From assembly GCA_020072655.1 (NCBI GenBank), contig JAIQGH010000007.1, forward strand, positions 1 to 64,000: DNA of 64,000 nt, given 5' to 3'. The notes under the pieces were generated by a model. The model made no database searches, was not told the DNA's origin, and worked only from the letters and a program-made list of their open reading frames with translations. The DNA comes from Terriglobia bacterium. GTDB taxonomy: Bacteria; Acidobacteriota; Terriglobia; UBA7540. Below, piece after piece: positions 6,019 to 34,632 of the stretch. The translations under genes were made by a program, and so were the position numbers. Position 1 is the stretch's first letter. Every line of letters starts with the position of its first letter.

Positions 6019-6630
6019 ATGATTCGACGAGCTTGGCTCTTGCTCCTGCTTGTTGGGGTCTCGCCACTTCCGACCAAGGGTGGAGCGGATAAGGGAAAGG
6101 TTCTTTGCCCCCCGACGCTGGCGCGGGTCGAGAGCTACTGCGTGGACACGAGGAGATTGTCGGCTGATGAAGCTTACGTCGTAAAAGCGTTCTTGAAGAT
6201 GGAAGACAAGCCGAAGGGCATTCTGCAGAAACTGCGATGGAAGAGGATTGAAGATTGCGCCATATCCGAGGCGGACGTGACGATTAGGATTGAATTCCCT
6301 TTCCTGAACGCCACTGAATTGAGGGCCGGGGAGGTCCCGGACGTCGGCATTTCCCCGCGCGAGCCACGTGACCAGTCGGACGTTCGCATTTCCCCGCGCG
6401 AGCAAGGTGACTATTTCATGAAGGCGGTGCTTCAAGTACACGATAATTCCACCTCCAGGATGATATTTACGGTGGAGGCTCTTCCGCTCGATATCGATAG
6501 CGTTGAATCCGACCCGGTGATGAAGGGAACGAACCTCTACCAGCGGCGCCTTGACGCCCTGCGCCGTACTTTTGAGATGCTCATTCACGACCTCGGGCCT
6601 GTGCCGCCCACGACGAAGGAGGCCCGTTGA
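6019..6630 (+). CDS. Secreted protein of unknown function with a 13-residue internal duplication
   Basis: This 203-residue protein starts at ATG 6019 behind an AGGAG ribosome binding site. The N-terminus is a signal peptide (MIRRAWLLLLLVGVSPLP). I do not recognise the mature part. It has two Cys near the N-terminus (CPPTLARVESYC) and a mixed alpha/beta-looking body. Residues about 108-133 hold a near-perfect 13-residue tandem repeat (around ISPRE), encoded by a 39-bp DNA duplication at 6340-6417. The gene stands alone and is bracketed by two short tRNA-tail-like repeats about 1 kb apart, which hints at a small inserted cassette. Confidence 0.6.
   Translation: MIRRAWLLLLLVGVSPLPTKGGADKGKVLCPPTLARVESYCVDTRRLSADEAYVVKAFLKMEDKPKGILQKLRWKRIEDCAISEADVTIRIEFPFLNATELRAGEVPDVGISPREPRDQSDVRISPREQGDYFMKAVLQVHDNSTSRMIFTVEALPLDIDSVESDPVMKGTNLYQRRLDALRRTFEMLIHDLGPVPPTTKEAR
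6340..6417 (+). repeat. 39-bp imperfect tandem duplication inside the 6019 gene
   Basis: Two adjacent 39-bp units start at 6340 and 6379. They keep the reading frame and encode DVGISPRE and DVRISPRE segments. Confidence 0.75.
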
Positions 6631-26364: not shown

Positions 26365-26753
26365 TGGCGGTCCGTGGCGAGGGGGGTCCGCCCGCAGCAG
26401 CGTATGCTAATCTCCGCCGCCCGGGAATGCAACGGAAATAGTTGCCCAGCGAGCAACGGTATAACCCAATAGGCGATAATGGAATGTAACTACGGAAGTG
26501 AAATAATTACCAATTGGATTCCAGGCCCACCAGTATCAAGGTGCTTGGCCGCAGAACGAAGCGCGCTCAAGATTGGCCTCCGCGGTTGAGCGAGCCCGAC
26601 AGGGCAGGCGCGGGAGAGAAATGGGCCCTTGGGAGTCGCCTGGGTGTATACTTACGGGTACTGGGGAAGTCTCGAGCCGGAGCCGGGGCGAGGCCGAAAG
26701 TCCGCAGCGCAGGCGTCGCCAGAGGGACTGCGGCTTCAACTGGAAAAGGCGTT
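26365..26753. other. Intergenic region between the oxidase genes and the TPR cluster
   Basis: About 390 bases with no supported gene. AT-richer text at 26440-26515 could hold divergent promoters, but I see no clear -35/-10 pair. An open frame from 26514 joins the TPR gene. Its first 80 codons are Arg/Gly-rich and have no protein character, so I exclude them. Confidence 0.4.
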
Positions 26754-27434
26754 ATGCCAGGTCGAATAGCTGAGCGCGTGTTTGCACTCCTCGATTGGTG
26801 CTGGCCTCTTCCTCTCGGTGTATTGGTCGGAGCCTTGGTGTTCGCAATCTCAGCAGGCATTTGGCGAGCGTCAAACGCGCGGCGCCGGGCGTCGCAGACG
26901 GCATCCCCGGCACTGACGCAGTCTCGCATTAATTCTGCAGCGCTGCAGGAGAAGCTCCCGGCACCTTCACAATCCCAGGCGCCCGAGGTACCGAACTCGC
27001 CCGCGGCCGGAGACGCGGGCGCCTCCGCGAGCATCGGTGGAAATGCTCCTGTGGCTGGAACCCCTTTCCGTTCCGCGCCACCTGTCAGCCTATCCGCTTC
27101 CGGGCCGCAGAAAGGCGGCGCCCCGGGGTTGCCCCCTCCAGAGATGGCATCTGCCGCGAAAGTCCCCCCTACTCATCCTCAGGGTTCTAGTCCGCGAGCG
27201 GGCGCCGAGCCCAAGGCCGCTTCGGCATCCAGCCAGCTTACTCCCTCTCAAAAGGCCGAGCTGAGTGACAAGCTCACCCTGGGGCGATTCTTCATGGATC
27301 GGCAAGACTACAGCGCGGCCTTGGCTGAGTTTCAGGCCGCCCAGGCGATCGATCCCTCTGATCGCGAGGTGCAAACGGCAGTCCGGCAAGCTCGTGAAGC
27401 CGGGAGCCGTCCCGGATCCGCTCCTCCACCGTAA
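26754..27434 (+). CDS. Membrane-anchored protein with a C-terminal TPR
   Basis: 226 residues from ATG 26754. It has a short cytoplasmic N-terminus, one membrane helix (PLGVLVGALVFAISAGIW), a long Ala/Pro/Ser-rich linker (about 45-165) and one TPR-like unit (FFMDRQDYSAALAEFQAAQAIDP). The C-terminal unit closely resembles the one ending the pseudokinase encoded next (KRKNYRAAIESFQKALEIDP), so the two may have a common origin or pair with each other. I choose the internal ATG because the membrane helix then falls near the N-terminus. It is the first gene of a run of four TPR proteins. No enzymatic motif is present. Confidence 0.65.
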   Translation: MPGRIAERVFALLDWCWPLPLGVLVGALVFAISAGIWRASNARRRASQTASPALTQSRINSAALQEKLPAPSQSQAPEVPNSPAAGDAGASASIGGNAPVAGTPFRSAPPVSLSASGPQKGGAPGLPPPEMASAAKVPPTHPQGSSPRAGAEPKAASASSQLTPSQKAELSDKLTLGRFFMDRQDYSAALAEFQAAQAIDPSDREVQTAVRQAREAGSRPGSAPPP

Positions 27435-27741
27435 CTGACGCCGAGCTCGCTCGGGTTTCGTTCACGAGTTGCGCTATCGATGAGGGGCCCGCCCAAGACG
27501 ACAATCTGACCGAACAATACGCGAGGACATGCGACGGGGCATTGATGTGCCGCCGGTGATTGCATACGCGGCGGAATAGTGCTAAAAACTACTAAAACCT
27601 GAGATCCGCGACAAGCTCGCGATTCCAGGCCTCATGCGGCGTACTTCGGGAGAGTTCCGTAGCGCCGGGTTTTAGCCCGGCAGCGGCCTCCTTGTCCGAC
27701 CTCAAGGTCGGCGCTACGGCCGCCAGACCAAGGACCAGTGC
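27435..27741. other. Intergenic region with a dispersed palindromic element
   Basis: 307 bases with no gene. They contain the GTAGCGCC-bounded palindromic element at 27657-27719 (separate entry), which ends 22 bp before the pseudokinase start. Confidence 0.5.
27657..27719. repeat. Dispersed palindromic element, copy A (GTAGCGCC ends)
   Basis: The outer inverted repeat CCGTAGCGCC / GGCGCTACGG encloses two inner hairpins, GCCGGG..AGCCCGG and CCGACC..GGTCGG. It is the same family as copies at 35677, 51973, 53645 and 54359. The transcript would fold into a two-hairpin structure. Confidence 0.75.
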
Positions 27742-29523
27742 ATGAAGGTTTGTCCGACGTGCAAGCGCCTATATGGCTCGGCACTCGGGGTGTGTCCCGG
27801 CGACGGTGGGATACTTGCTGCCCTTCAGGAGTGGCGGCCGGGGGATTCGGTTTCACAGAACTTTAGGATCATCGAGAAGATTGGACACGGGAGTATCGGG
27901 GCGGTTTTCAAGGCCAAACTCCTGCCGCAAGGGGACCTGCGGGTGTTGAAGCCGCTCGCGGCGCACTTGGCCGATCATGAGTTTCTGATCGAATACCTTC
28001 GTCATAAGATCGAGGCGGCAAGCACCCTCCGGCACCTCAACATGGTTCAGATCGAGTCTCTCGAGTGGGCGGCTGACGGACGCCCGTTCATCGTCATGGA
28101 GCACGCCCCTGGCCTCTCTCTCCGCGAGCTCCTCATCCGGGGAGGATCCATGCCAGCCCGGGATGTGGTGGACATCGCGGGACAAATTTGCGCGGTCCTT
28201 GACTGTGCTCACCGGCTCGGGGTCATTCATCGAAACCTCAAACCAGAGAACGTCATCATCAGCGAGGAAGACGGGTCCCCCCGTGTCAAGGTGATGGAAT
28301 TGGGGATGGCGGACTTTCGCGAGGCCGCCGCCGTGCAAGGCAAGTATGTGGGGGATGTTCTGACGACGGAGCATGGCCCGGTGGTCGGGACGCGCGAATA
28401 CATGTCTCCAGAACAGGCGACGGGAACCCCCGCGAGCGCGCTGGACGGGCGCTCCGACCTGTATTCCCTGGGGGCGATGATGTTCGAGGCACTGACGGGC
28501 GAGTTGCCCATCGACCCGAACAACCCAGCGAGTGTTCTCGAACAAAGAGAGACAACCGCCGGGAAGAAACCGCTGTGCAGCACGATCCTCAGGGCATTGC
28601 ACAAGGACCCTGATTGCAGGTACCAATCGGCCACCGAGATGGCCGCGGATCTGCGCGGGCTTTCGCCTTCCTCGTTTCAGACAACCTGGAAGGAGGCAGG
28701 ACTCGGCGCGCGAACCGGGAGTGTCACGCTTCCGCTGTCCTCCCGAGACGCCCAACCGTCGACTTTGGACGTCCGCGCGCGAGCGGCGACGAGCTTCGAC
28801 TGGCAGCCACCGGAGCGCACCATCCCCAGGATGCCTGACCGCAGGGACCACACCCGAGAGAGACCGCAGCCGAGTGCCGCCGCTGCCTCGACGGATCGGG
28901 AAATCGAGGAGATCCGAAAAACGCTCACGCGGACGGGCTGGCCGGCCTTGCGCCAGCGTGGGCAACGTCATCTGCTCCGCACAGGTCTGCTCACACTTGG
29001 TTTCGCAATGGTTGCGTTGACAGCCGCGTGGCTGGCGTATCGCTGGCCCGGGACGTTATCCAGGCCGGAAGGACAGGCCGTTAGTCGCCAGGGCACCCTG
29101 GCATCCTCGCACGCGACCGTCCGTGAACCCTCGATGGATCTGAGATCGCCCGACGTTAACCCACCACCTCCTGGAGCGGTTCCCCCAAGCTGGAAAGAAC
29201 CCGCGGCGGGCCAAAGTTATGCCCCTTCTCAGCCCACGAAGTCGAAAGCCAAGAGGGCTGAGCCTCCCATCGAGACTCCGCCCTCAGTTACCCCAGAGGC
29301 CGAGGTGAAGGCAAAGGTCGCCGCTGGGTGGTTGCACGCCAAGCGCAAGAACTACCGTGCGGCGATCGAAAGCTTCCAAAAGGCGCTGGAGATCGATCCT
29401 GCCAATGTCGAGGCTCAGGCCGGCTTGCGCTTGGCGCACTATGCCGACCAAAACCCGGGCATAGATGTATTTCCAGCGGACCAGCCGGCGCCAGCCGAAA
29501 GCGAGGTGAAGAGGGCGCCATGA
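27742..29523 (+). CDS. Predicted Ser/Thr pseudokinase with zinc-ribbon-like start, membrane helix and TPR tail
   Basis: 593 residues. The first 20 hold CPTCKRLY...CPGDGG, a possible zinc knuckle. An eukaryote-like kinase fold follows (about 42-315) with glycine loop IGHGSIGAVF, beta-3 Lys in RVLKPL (K70), activation-segment motif EYMSPEQATG and DLYSLGAMMFEALTG. The catalytic loop reads HRNLKPEN, so the catalytic Asp is Asn165. The metal-binding DFG is ELG (E186-L187-G188). Both changes are expected to abolish or strongly reduce phosphotransfer, so this is a predicted pseudokinase. A membrane helix (about 415-437), a Pro-rich linker and one TPR follow. Its stop overlaps the start of the next TPR gene (ATGA), indicating coupled expression. 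Confidence 0.85.
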   Translation: MKVCPTCKRLYGSALGVCPGDGGILAALQEWRPGDSVSQNFRIIEKIGHGSIGAVFKAKLLPQGDLRVLKPLAAHLADHEFLIEYLRHKIEAASTLRHLNMVQIESLEWAADGRPFIVMEHAPGLSLRELLIRGGSMPARDVVDIAGQICAVLDCAHRLGVIHRNLKPENVIISEEDGSPRVKVMELGMADFREAAAVQGKYVGDVLTTEHGPVVGTREYMSPEQATGTPASALDGRSDLYSLGAMMFEALTGELPIDPNNPASVLEQRETTAGKKPLCSTILRALHKDPDCRYQSATEMAADLRGLSPSSFQTTWKEAGLGARTGSVTLPLSSRDAQPSTLDVRARAATSFDWQPPERTIPRMPDRRDHTRERPQPSAAAASTDREIEEIRKTLTRTGWPALRQRGQRHLLRTGLLTLGFAMVALTAAWLAYRWPGTLSRPEGQAVSRQGTLASSHATVREPSMDLRSPDVNPPPPGAVPPSWKEPAAGQSYAPSQPTKSKAKRAEPPIETPPSVTPEAEVKAKVAAGWLHAKRKNYRAAIESFQKALEIDPANVEAQAGLRLAHYADQNPGIDVFPADQPAPAESEVKRAP

Positions 29524-30917
29524 AATGTCGGCCGGGGATCGGCTTCATTCTTGCTCTCGTTGTTTTGGCCTGCGCTCCTTACCTGGCGTTCTCACAGCAG
29601 ACGGCCAAGCCTCTGGCGGAGCAAGAGTTGATTTTCCTTCTTGGGAAGAACGTTAGCAGCCGCGCCTTGGCGGACATGGTCAAATCTTACGGCGTGACCT
29701 TTGAGCTAGATCCGCAGGTCCTCGATCGCCTGAAGAAGGCGGGCGCCGGAGACGTGCTCCTGGAGGCTGTCCGGCGAACCGCCAAGCCACCCAGCTCGGC
29801 GGTCGAAGCAGCCAAGCCCGTCGCGGTAATACCGACACCGGAAGCTGTTCCGCCCCTCGCGCAGCAGCACCTGGAAGCGGGCCTGCGCAAGCTGAAAGAG
29901 AACGATTACGGCGGTGCCCTGCACGAGTTCGCCGACGCGGACAAAGTGCGGCCAGATTGGGGACCGGTCCTTTATCATCGGGGTTTAGCCTTGGCAGCGC
30001 TTGGGCATTACGCGGAAGCGGCCGCGGAATGGAAGAAGTACCTTTCGTCCGCCCCCTCCGGCACCGACGAGGAGCCGATCCAACAAAAGATCGCGGCGTG
30101 GGAAAACGAAGTGGTGAGGATCGAAAAGACCCGCGCACTCCTCGTCGCCGGCGACCAGCAAGTGCAGCGTCGAGACCCGAGGGCCGCTGCCCAGTCCTTC
30201 CGCGAAGCGCTTGCGCTGGACGATTCCGTCGGCCCGTTGCTTGCGCTGGCAAGGCTGGAACTGCTCGCCGGCGACTACAAGTTGTTGGCGGAAACGGCGC
30301 AGAAAACCCTGGCGCTCGACCCGCAGTCGGCCCTGGCCAAACTCTATCTGGCCGATGCGGAACTTCGCCAAGGAGAAATCGAAAAGTGCCTGACGGCTCT
30401 CCAGCAAGGGCTGACTTTCAATCCCTACCTCGCCTACGGCCGGGCCCTCATGGGCCAGGCACTGGAGCACAAGACGCCGCCATCGGGGGGTCAGCAGAAG
30501 CCGGCGCGCGAGGGAGGGGCGAATGCGGCGTCGGCCGAGGAGCGCAATCGCCTCGGATGGGTCCTTTGGAATGGGGGGCACTTTCAGGAGGCCTTGGACG
30601 AATTGGACAAGGCGGCGTTGCTGGACCCTGAGGAAGGCCGTTGGCAGTGTGACCTGGCCTATGCGCGCATCGCCCAACGCGATACGGCGGGAGCCCTGGC
30701 GGCCGCCCGCGAGGCCGTCCGCTTGAATCCTGCGAGTCCGTGCGGGCATCACACCCTCGCCCTGGCGATGGAGAGGAGCGGGCAGCACGACCAAGCCTCG
30801 CTCGAGTATCAACAAGCTTTGAAGCTCATCTCCATCCCCAACGCCGAAAGTCTTCTCCGGCCCCCGATGCACGCCATGGAGGCCGATGTCAGTCATCGCG
30901 CCACCGAGAAGCATTAA
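29520..30917 (+). CDS. Secreted TPR protein
   Basis: 465 residues from the ATG overlapping the pseudokinase stop. The longer frame from 29328 lies inside the kinase gene and is rejected. It has a signal peptide (FILALVVLACAPYLAFSQ, possibly a lipobox at LAC). A short N-terminal domain (FLLGKNVSSRALADMVKSYG ... GDVLLEAVR) of unknown role comes next, followed by at least eight TPR-like helical pairs. A charged insert of about 30 residues (around 318-345) splits the TPR array. TPR arrays bind protein partners. The location is presumably periplasmic or outer-membrane. Coupling to the pseudokinase suggests a shared complex or signalling role. Confidence 0.75.
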   Translation: MKCRPGIGFILALVVLACAPYLAFSQQTAKPLAEQELIFLLGKNVSSRALADMVKSYGVTFELDPQVLDRLKKAGAGDVLLEAVRRTAKPPSSAVEAAKPVAVIPTPEAVPPLAQQHLEAGLRKLKENDYGGALHEFADADKVRPDWGPVLYHRGLALAALGHYAEAAAEWKKYLSSAPSGTDEEPIQQKIAAWENEVVRIEKTRALLVAGDQQVQRRDPRAAAQSFREALALDDSVGPLLALARLELLAGDYKLLAETAQKTLALDPQSALAKLYLADAELRQGEIEKCLTALQQGLTFNPYLAYGRALMGQALEHKTPPSGGQQKPAREGGANAASAEERNRLGWVLWNGGHFQEALDELDKAALLDPEEGRWQCDLAYARIAQRDTAGALAAAREAVRLNPASPCGHHTLALAMERSGQHDQASLEYQQALKLISIPNAESLLRPPMHAMEADVSHRATEKH

Positions 30918-30941
30918 GGTCGGAGGCGCGGTAAGGACGGC

Positions 30942-30959
30942 CCGGCGGGGCGTCTCTAC
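30942..30959 (+). repeat. Half copy of the GTAGAGACGCCCC palindrome
   Basis: CCGGCGGGGCGTCTCTAC equals one arm plus the centre of the perfect palindrome at 50414-50442. The other arm has diverged here. Confidence 0.6.
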
Positions 30960-31015
30960 ACGGAGCGGCCGAAGGCCTGATAGTCGGGAAGTCCCGGAAG
31001 GAGATTGAAGACGGG

Positions 31016-32095
31016 ATGATCCTATATCGCAGCGTAACGAAACCCGGACTCTGCCTGACGATTCTACTCACTGCCGTTGCGGCAACCGCCGCGGACAAGG
31101 TCCAAGAATTGTTCAGCCGGGCCAACGCCCTGGCAGAGCAGCAGTCCTGGGACGCTGCCGTGGCTCAGTACAAGGAAGTGGTGCGGCTTTCGCCGAATTT
31201 CCCCGGAGCTCACTACAACCTGGGCTTGGCGCTTCAGATGAAGGGAGACCTGGAAGGAGCCATCGACGAGTACCGGCAGGCGATCCGTTTGAAGCCGGAC
31301 TTCACCGAGGCTCGCAACAACCTTGGGCTCGCGCTGCTGCGGAGTGGTCAGGCGGATGTGGCGATCGAGGAGTATCGGGACCTGATCCGTCGGCAGCCAG
31401 ACTTCGCGGAAGCGTACTACAATCTTGCCAACGCCTGGATGGCGAAAGGGCAGATGGACTCCGCGGTTGCCACCTACCGCGAAGCGCTGCGCCTGCGCCC
31501 GGACATCGCCCAGGAACACAACAACCTCGCCAATGCGCTGCGGGCCCAGGGCAAAGTGGAAGAGGCCATCGCCGAGTATCGCGAAGCCATGCGACTGAGC
31601 AAGCCGCGGGCAGACCTCTACTTCAACCTCGCCAACGCCCTGAGTGATACGGGGAAGGCCAACGAAGCTATCGAACAGTACGGACTCGCCTTGATGCTGG
31701 CGCCGAATGATCCCCAAATCCAAAACAACCTGGGCGTAACCTACGCCGCCCAGGGTAACGTGGAAAAGGCCGCCGAGGCGTATCGGCAGGCCCTCAGGCT
31801 TGAACCGGGTTTTGCGCGGGCACATTACAATCTGGCGCTCCTGCTCGAAAAGCAGGGCGACCTGATTTCGGCGATCAGCGAATACAACGCCGCCATCCAA
31901 TCGAGACCCGACTACGCTGCTGCGCATTGCAGCCTGGGCGAGGTCCTCGAAAGGACCGGCCGGCAGCAAGACGCTCTCGCGCATTTTCGGACCGCCTGGG
32001 AATTCGATCCTCAGAATTTCCCATGCCTGGCGGAGTACGAAAGGCTCCTGAAAGCCTCAAAGCCATCAAACCCAACGCCCGCCCCCGCCCATTAG
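31016..32095 (+). CDS. Secreted TPR-array protein
   Basis: 359 residues with a signal peptide (LCLTILLTAVAATAA). About nine consecutive canonical TPR units cover almost the whole mature protein (for example AHYNLGLALQMKGDLEGAI, EARNNLGLALLRSGQADVAI and IQNNLGVTYAAQGNVEKAA). Such superhelical arrays are protein-binding scaffolds. It is the fourth TPR protein in a row, after the TM-TPR, pseudokinase-TPR and secreted TPR genes, and probably belongs to the same functional group. It lies about 100 bp downstream of the preceding gene, with a half palindromic repeat between them. Confidence 0.82.
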   Translation: MILYRSVTKPGLCLTILLTAVAATAADKVQELFSRANALAEQQSWDAAVAQYKEVVRLSPNFPGAHYNLGLALQMKGDLEGAIDEYRQAIRLKPDFTEARNNLGLALLRSGQADVAIEEYRDLIRRQPDFAEAYYNLANAWMAKGQMDSAVATYREALRLRPDIAQEHNNLANALRAQGKVEEAIAEYREAMRLSKPRADLYFNLANALSDTGKANEAIEQYGLALMLAPNDPQIQNNLGVTYAAQGNVEKAAEAYRQALRLEPGFARAHYNLALLLEKQGDLISAISEYNAAIQSRPDYAAAHCSLGEVLERTGRQQDALAHFRTAWEFDPQNFPCLAEYERLLKASKPSNPTPAPAH

Positions 32096-33627: not shown

Positions 33628-34632
33628 GTGACAACGCTGATGGCAATCCTGATGGCCGCTCTGGTGACCGGAACCCAACAACATCCCTACTTGGGTGCTT
33701 TTCTAATGATCGTGTTCGGCGTAGTGAGTTTCCTTGTCGGTTTCAAGCAATATCGCGGGTACCGGATTCTGGCCGACGCGCCGAAGGCTCGCGTTCGCAG
33801 CATGCCGATGGGACTGGTACACCTGCAGGGCAAGGCGACGGGCGAACCCTTGATCAGCCCCCTGACGGGGGCGCGTTGTTTCATCTTCACGGCGGACATT
33901 GAAGAAAAAGTGAAGACGAGAACCAAGAGCGGCGGAACGACATGGGAATGGCAAACCGTTGCCGGCGACGACGACCTTAAGGAGTTCCACCTGGACGACG
34001 GTACGGGCCGCGTGCTGGTGAATCCTGGTGGGGCGGAGGAGGGGATCAATTTGCAGCGCACATTCTATTGCGAAATCGGGAAGGACGGCCATTTCCAATC
34101 GGTTCGTCCTACCCCGGGAATGCCGGCGCCAACCGAGCAGGCCGTGTGGGCCTGGATTCACGGAGCCCACCGTCGCAAGCTCGTGGAGAAGAAGTTTGAG
34201 CTTGAAGCGGAAAGTATCAAGGGGATAGATCCCGTAAAGGCGAAGGAGTCCATGATTAAGGTTCTGAACGCCATGCACCAGATCCAGTCATTGGGCACCG
34301 CGCCACGGATGGAGTCGTTGGGCGCCGCTCTCGAAGGCACCTCCGCTTCCGGACTCAGGGGAGGCCCGTATCACGTGACCGAGGAATGCCTCCTCGCCGA
34401 TAGTGACTGCTTCATCCTGGGCACGTGCGCTGAAAACCCCGACGCCAAAAGCGACGAGGATCGCAACATTATTCGCAAAGGAGAGAATGAAAAGACCTTT
34501 CTGATTTCCACGCAAGGCGAGGTGAAGGCCGGAAGGAGCCTGCGCCTTCAGGCCTTCGGATTGGTTCTCCTCGGCGCAGCCTTGATTATTGGAGCCGCCG
34601 CCCTGGCGCTCAACGCGGCGGGACTGCTCTAA
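33628..34632 (+). CDS. GIDE-domain membrane protein
   Basis: 334 residues starting at GTG behind AAAGGAG. One membrane helix lies near the N-terminus (LGAFLMIVFGVVSFLVGF) and one at the very C-terminus (FGLVLLGAALIIGAAALAL). Between them is a GIDE-type domain: VHLQGKATGEPLISPLTGARC, TWEWQTVAGDDD, FHLDDGTGRVLVNP and YHVTEECLLADSDCFILGTC. This matches the prokaryotic relatives of the intermembrane domain of the mitochondrial E3 ligase MULAN. There is no RING domain, so ubiquitin ligase activity is not implied. The bacterial role is poorly known. An insertion at about 155-250 is not part of the usual core. Confidence 0.75.
   Translation: MTTLMAILMAALVTGTQQHPYLGAFLMIVFGVVSFLVGFKQYRGYRILADAPKARVRSMPMGLVHLQGKATGEPLISPLTGARCFIFTADIEEKVKTRTKSGGTTWEWQTVAGDDDLKEFHLDDGTGRVLVNPGGAEEGINLQRTFYCEIGKDGHFQSVRPTPGMPAPTEQAVWAWIHGAHRRKLVEKKFELEAESIKGIDPVKAKESMIKVLNAMHQIQSLGTAPRMESLGAALEGTSASGLRGGPYHVTEECLLADSDCFILGTCAENPDAKSDEDRNIIRKGENEKTFLISTQGEVKAGRSLRLQAFGLVLLGAALIIGAAALALNAAGLL

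Follow-up and report, generated by a model that had tools for sequence, protein, structure and literature searches.

A candidate membrane pseudokinase and its presumed TPR partners in a conserved gene block of Acidobacteria

What role could a receptor-type bacterial kinase have once the aspartates of its catalytic center are replaced? The question is raised by a block of four genes in the draft genome of a Terriglobia bacterium (4.36 Mb, 209 contigs). We analyzed it in a window of 64,000 nucleotides, i.e., the whole stretch of DNA studied here, which belongs to contig G000:C153. The sequence-only reading of this window had singled out four consecutive plus-strand genes encoding TPR proteins, and all four open reading frames are present (Table 1).

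Layout of the block

The products are, in order, a TM-TPR protein, a protein with a Zn-ribbon, a kinase domain, a transmembrane (TM) helix and a TPR, and two predicted exported TPR proteins. Membrane helices had been proposed for the first two and secretion for the others. The single helices of gene 1 and of the kinase (about aa 414-432, hydropathy) and the signal peptide-like start of gene 3, which precedes several TPRs (hydropathy, Pfam), agree with this proposal, while gene 4 has a weaker signal-like start, below the TM threshold. The stop codon of the kinase overlaps the start codon of gene 3 (ATGA at 29520-29523), as had been noticed, and this overlap is kept in all three genomes where we found the block. 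The gap of 307 bp between gene 1 and the kinase holds a palindromic repeat with 27 sites in the genome at two mismatches or fewer, and its presence in the block is probably incidental. Outside the block, a membrane protein resembling GIDE (E3 ubiquitin ligase-like) is encoded at window positions 33628-34632; it is borderline by the Pfam cut-off, and the genomes of the family hold many relatives of it.

The TPR arrays sit in genes 3 and 4, and gene 1 and the kinase end in only one TPR unit each; that of the kinase (about aa 519-568) scores just below the curated Pfam cut-off. Gene 1 gave no match in a Pfam search of its product. Its start position is supported by an orthologue in another genome (G016, see below), which aligns over the full length with 36% identity (tblastn). 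The two single-unit tails had been described as alike, and their local alignment has a score of 83 (38% identity across 55 residues), against 41 and 35 for the gene 1 tail and the TPRs of genes 3 and 4. Since the resemblance is specific to the kinase tail, gene 1 may be a copy of the TM-linker-TPR end of the kinase, minus the kinase domain.

Table 1. Features of the block, in window coordinates.
Feature	Position	Strand	Description
Gene 1 (226 aa)	26754..27434	+	TM helix aa 19-37, Pro/Ala-rich linker, one TPR-like tail (hydropathy, tail alignment)
Palindromic repeat element CCGACCTCAAGGTCGGCGCTAC	27696..27717	+	In the gap between gene 1 and gene 2
Gene 2, putative pseudokinase (593 aa)	27742..29523	+	Zn-ribbon-like N-terminus, kinase domain, linker, TM, one TPR tail
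Gene 3 (465 aa)	29520..30917	+	Signal peptide, unnamed four-helix domain aa ~31-86, TPR array
Gene 4 (359 aa)	31016..32095	+	Signal-like N-terminus, about nine TPRs (Pfam, hydropathy)

Catalytic residues and their conservation

The product of gene 2 has a Hanks-type (eukaryotic-like) Ser/Thr kinase fold. Its PknB-like kinase domain (about aa 37-305) matches the Pfam family Pkinase (PF00069, 4e-30), and the bilobal fold is predicted confidently (pLDDT 91), with Z of 27-29 to PknA/PknB. The domain follows a Cys-rich, Zn-ribbon-like N-terminus (CPTC...CPGDG). The motif residues reported by the sequence-only reading were all recovered: the HRD Asp is replaced by N165 (HRNLKPEN) and the DFG Asp by E186 (MELG, E186-G188), with K70 in beta-3, the glycine loop GHGSIG and SPE intact. 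Lys167 and Asn170 are intact as well. To these changes we add the replacement of the alphaC Glu by Lys89, seen both in the family alignment and in the alignment to Mtb PknB. The 48 related canonical kinases that we compared all keep the three residues replaced here. Hence, among the beta-3 Lys, HRD Asp and DFG Asp that define a catalytically competent Ser/Thr kinase, only the first is present. The activation segment has a normal length, with about 36 residues from ELG to SPE. A pattern scan of the window genome found one HRN site, that of the block kinase, against 26 HRD sites. In the class, the HRN pattern, which takes in CGN Arg codons only, gave 37 sites in 36 genomes, one of them that of the window; 30 of the 36 others were read, and none of these showed a kinase.

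The block is carried by three related genera of soil and groundwater Acidobacteria. Its closest carriers, G016 and G031, are MAGs of the same family as the window genome, and all three genomes are draft assemblies. One might thus have suspected a sequencing or assembly error, or a recent inactivation in a single strain. G016 (groundwater MAG JACQNR01) belongs to another genus and has the same four genes, with identities to the window of 51-52% for gene 3, 66% for gene 4 and about 60-62% for the kinase (62% in the kinase domain). The motifs of its kinase, which is split over two contigs overlapping by 128 identical bases, are HQN and EFG. As an independent genome, from a different genus, shows both substitutions, they are not errors, and we rejected this explanation, to which we give practically no weight. 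The alphaC Glu is kept in G016 and thus lost in the window kinase only. The loss of the catalytic and the metal-binding Asp is conserved in two genera, and with G016 the kinase falls under the bioinformatic definition of a pseudokinase, i.e., loss of catalytic residues conserved in orthologues. The outcome that would have spoken against a conserved pseudokinase block, namely homologues that all have HRD and DFG or a neighborhood that is not conserved, is not what we observed.

The expectation that Asn and Glu would be kept across the clade with the same neighbors was borne out by the window and G016, but not by G031 (gp13 MAG QHZM01, a third genus), which therefore stays outside this definition. 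In G031, the kinase is followed by gene 3 (39% identity) and gene 4 (40%), as in the window, and its HRD and DFG are intact. The comparison covers the kinase and genes 3 and 4, as the contig ends where gene 1 would lie. A tree of 52 kinases places the window and G016 kinases as sisters (100/100) and that of G031 as the next sister (100/97). The branches of G031 and of the degenerate pair are long and adjoin in this tree, but the gene order that they share supports the grouping independently. The intact motifs of G031 suggest that the kinase-TPR module is older than the degeneration, which took place within one of its sub-clades, and that the module does not require the loss of catalysis. We had regarded the G031 kinase (L045, G031:C275) as plainly active, a view that we softened: its activity is not certain, since the catalytic-loop Lys and the GT-motif Thr are changed (K167R, T217V) and both are otherwise invariant in the 48 relatives. 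Arg at the former position occurs in some tyrosine kinases.

Is the degenerate kinase still under selection? Between the window and G016, dN is about 0.28 and dS about 1.8 in the kinase domain, and 0.27 and 2.0 in gene 4, with dS near saturation, so that the ratio is only indicative. The linker and tail of the kinase evolve faster (dN 0.67). The kinase domain is under purifying selection by this measure, and as dN is well below dS, the degenerate kinase appears to be maintained. These values bear on the idea that the gene is decaying after having lost its role. The long stem branch to the degenerate pair (1.47) and a congener devoid of the block, G019, would fit such decay. However, both reading frames are uninterrupted (593 and 627 codons), the two replacements are shared between genera whose kinases are 60-62% identical, dN remains well below dS, and the coupling of start and stop codons is kept. 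We thus disfavor decay and regard it as very unlikely. In G019, synteny on the left side runs to about window position 26451, beyond which other genes follow; this means that the block was either gained in the window lineage or lost in G019. Beyond its three carriers, we did not find the block among 399 genomes of the class nor in 396 genomes of the phylum, and a scan of contigs returned the same two relatives and one spurious match only. Within the reach of the contigs, each of the three genomes has different genes next to the block.

Another alternative is that catalysis persists, either as weak phosphotransfer with Glu186 binding the metal or as another ATP-dependent reaction, as in SelO and SidJ. 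Lys70, the glycine loop, Lys167, Asn170 and SPE are intact, the Glu of the altered DFG motif still provides a carboxylate, and pseudokinases with new chemistry exist (PMC12599244). Against this, the catalytic base and the metal-binding Asp are invariant in 48 relatives and changed in both genera. We consider residual catalysis to be quite unlikely.

Relation to other kinases and pseudokinases

The closest relatives in domain order are canonical Zn-ribbon Ser/Thr kinases of Acidobacteria (G000:C162, G017, G018, G012), in which HRD and DFG are intact, unlike in the window kinase. They are often directly followed by an exported protein whose N-terminal part is also found in gene 3, an exported domain of roughly 55 aa and four predicted helices (aa 31-86, window 29610-29777, '...MVKSYGVTFELDPQVLDRLKKAGAGDVLLEAVR'). 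No Pfam family or model covers this domain. It recurs in 12 further proteins of the window genome (G000:C111, C162, C90, C183, C46 and others), where it stands, among others, before PEGA-PDZ and, in triplicate, before WD40 propellers. In G003, G004, G005, G012, G017 and G018, a gene with this domain lies directly 3' of a Zn-ribbon kinase that ends in a TPR tail, and in the window genome one lies 3' of the canonical paralogue at C162. The block shows every feature of this arrangement: a CxxC...CPxDG N-terminus, kinase, TM helix, TPR tail, and next an exported protein with the 55-aa domain. The partners encoded downstream of the canonical kinases differ from the TPR protein of the block (PEGA-PDZ at C162). 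The recurrence of the domain behind canonical kinases suggests that the block derives from a common acidobacterial module of kinase and exported partner, of which it appears to be a specialized version that lost the catalytic Asp residues in one lineage. We found nothing on point in the literature on acidobacterial Zn-ribbon or TPR kinases. Two other Zn-ribbon kinases deserve mention. In the canonical paralogue at G000:C162 (L125, about 6474-6531), the N-lobe appears to be split over two frames, either through an indel of the assembly or because the frameshift is real. The other, L038 (G010:C90:5486-6256), is a second degenerate kinase in the same family; it lies outside the clade of the block kinase and has HGD, VGFG and a degraded glycine loop.

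Among characterized systems, the PASTA-type receptor kinases PknB and PknA are the best matches in fold and sequence, and their plan of a kinase inside, a single TM helix and a sensor region outside is also that predicted for the block kinase. The latter has no PASTA repeats, one TPR outside in their place, and neither the HRD nor the DFG Asp. PknG resembles it in having a metal-binding N-terminal region, a kinase and TPRs, in an operon with envelope-sensing partners (PMC8546545); it differs in being active, in having a rubredoxin domain in most actinobacteria, and in that its kinase and the TPR domain fused to it share one side of the membrane.

Membrane pseudokinases that act as scaffolds are documented in bacteria, namely YukC/EssB and MviN (PMC12599244, PMC9600267). 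YukC/EssB of the T7SSb, a scaffold (PMC9600267, PMC12599244), has a cytoplasmic pseudokinase, one TM helix and a helical extracellular part, a topology like the one predicted here. In contrast with its degraded glycine loop and attenuated activation loop, GHGSIG and the activation loop are not degraded in the block kinase, which has no Pfam match to the YukC domain. The actinobacterial ActPs2 and ActPs3/MviN are likewise TM-associated. ActPs2 shares the Asn in place of the HRD Asp, but has Arg for the beta-3 Lys and mostly a deletion of DFG (PMC12599244), whereas the block kinases keep the Lys and have E-L/F-G at the DFG position. In ActPs3/MviN, all three motifs are degraded and the activation loop has a deletion (PMC12599244), whereas K70 is retained here and the segment of normal length ends in SPE. 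By their published definitions, the window kinase belongs to none of the three. A 2025 review of bacterial pseudokinases describes seven families and makes no mention of Acidobacteria, of TPR-linked members or of HRN (PMC12599244).

A possible scaffold or switch across the envelope

How might such a protein work? We see about an even chance that the block goes back to a module of acidobacterial receptor-type Ser/Thr kinases and now encodes a membrane scaffold or switch that acts without catalysis and is coupled to periplasmic TPR proteins. The Zn-ribbon and the pseudokinase domain would be cytoplasmic, with one helix crossing the inner membrane and a proline-rich linker placing the single TPR of the kinase in the periplasm. 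There, it would meet the matching TPR of gene 1 and the exported TPR proteins translated along with the kinase. Binding on that side would change the conformation or the dimerization of the pseudokinase, which would then recruit or release a cytoplasmic partner without phosphotransfer of its own. Such a trans-envelope assembly, already put forward by the sequence-only reading, is consistent with the predicted topology and the conserved translational coupling. Counting against a scaffold, the degenerate state is known from two genomes, both draft, and the retained beta-3 Lys, glycine loop and catalytic-loop Asn seem to exceed the needs of a pure scaffold. The intact HRD and DFG of G031 beside the same neighbors and the 307 bp that set gene 1 apart weigh in the same direction.

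These retained residues bring in the pseudokinases of eukaryotes. HER3 has lost the HRD Asp (to Asn) and the alphaC Glu, keeps Lys72 and Asn171, binds ATP tightly, retains weak activity and activates its partners; JAK2 JH2 also has Asn for the HRD Asp and binds ATP (PMC4718504). As Lys70 and Asn170 are kept and the HRN and alphaC changes are those of HER3, the window kinase possibly binds nucleotides. As an allosteric pseudokinase comparable to HER3 and JAK2 JH2, it could then form a PknB-like dimer with an active paralogue in the same cell and thereby control that kinase. The genome has candidates, with about 26 HRD-type kinase sites that include the canonical Zn-ribbon kinase-TM-TPR paralogue at C162. 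Yet, HER3 and JH2, relatives of eukaryotic tyrosine kinases whose resemblance to the block kinase is convergent, keep the DFG Asp that is Glu here; the loss of the alphaC Glu is confined to the window and absent in G016; and no partner kinase lies nearby, the window contig having a single kinase match. We hold this alternative to be possible, if somewhat unlikely. Bolder still, and unlikely, is a bacterial counterpart of HER3: a receptor-like TM pseudokinase that would bind ATP without phosphotransfer and relay periplasmic TPR signals to active paralogues, its HRN and alphaC changes having evolved independently in one family of Acidobacteria.

Under the preferred reading of a scaffold or switch, what would be new is a conserved variant of bacterial membrane pseudokinase with TPR partners, together with a mechanism that we propose for it. 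Bacterial pseudokinases are largely uncharacterized. The block further draws attention to an exported domain, common but unnamed, that is coupled to kinases of Acidobacteria. Finally, the same operon occurs with an intact-motif kinase in G031 and with a degenerate kinase in the window and in G016. This natural pair lends itself to the question of which function is left to a bacterial receptor kinase once catalysis is gone.
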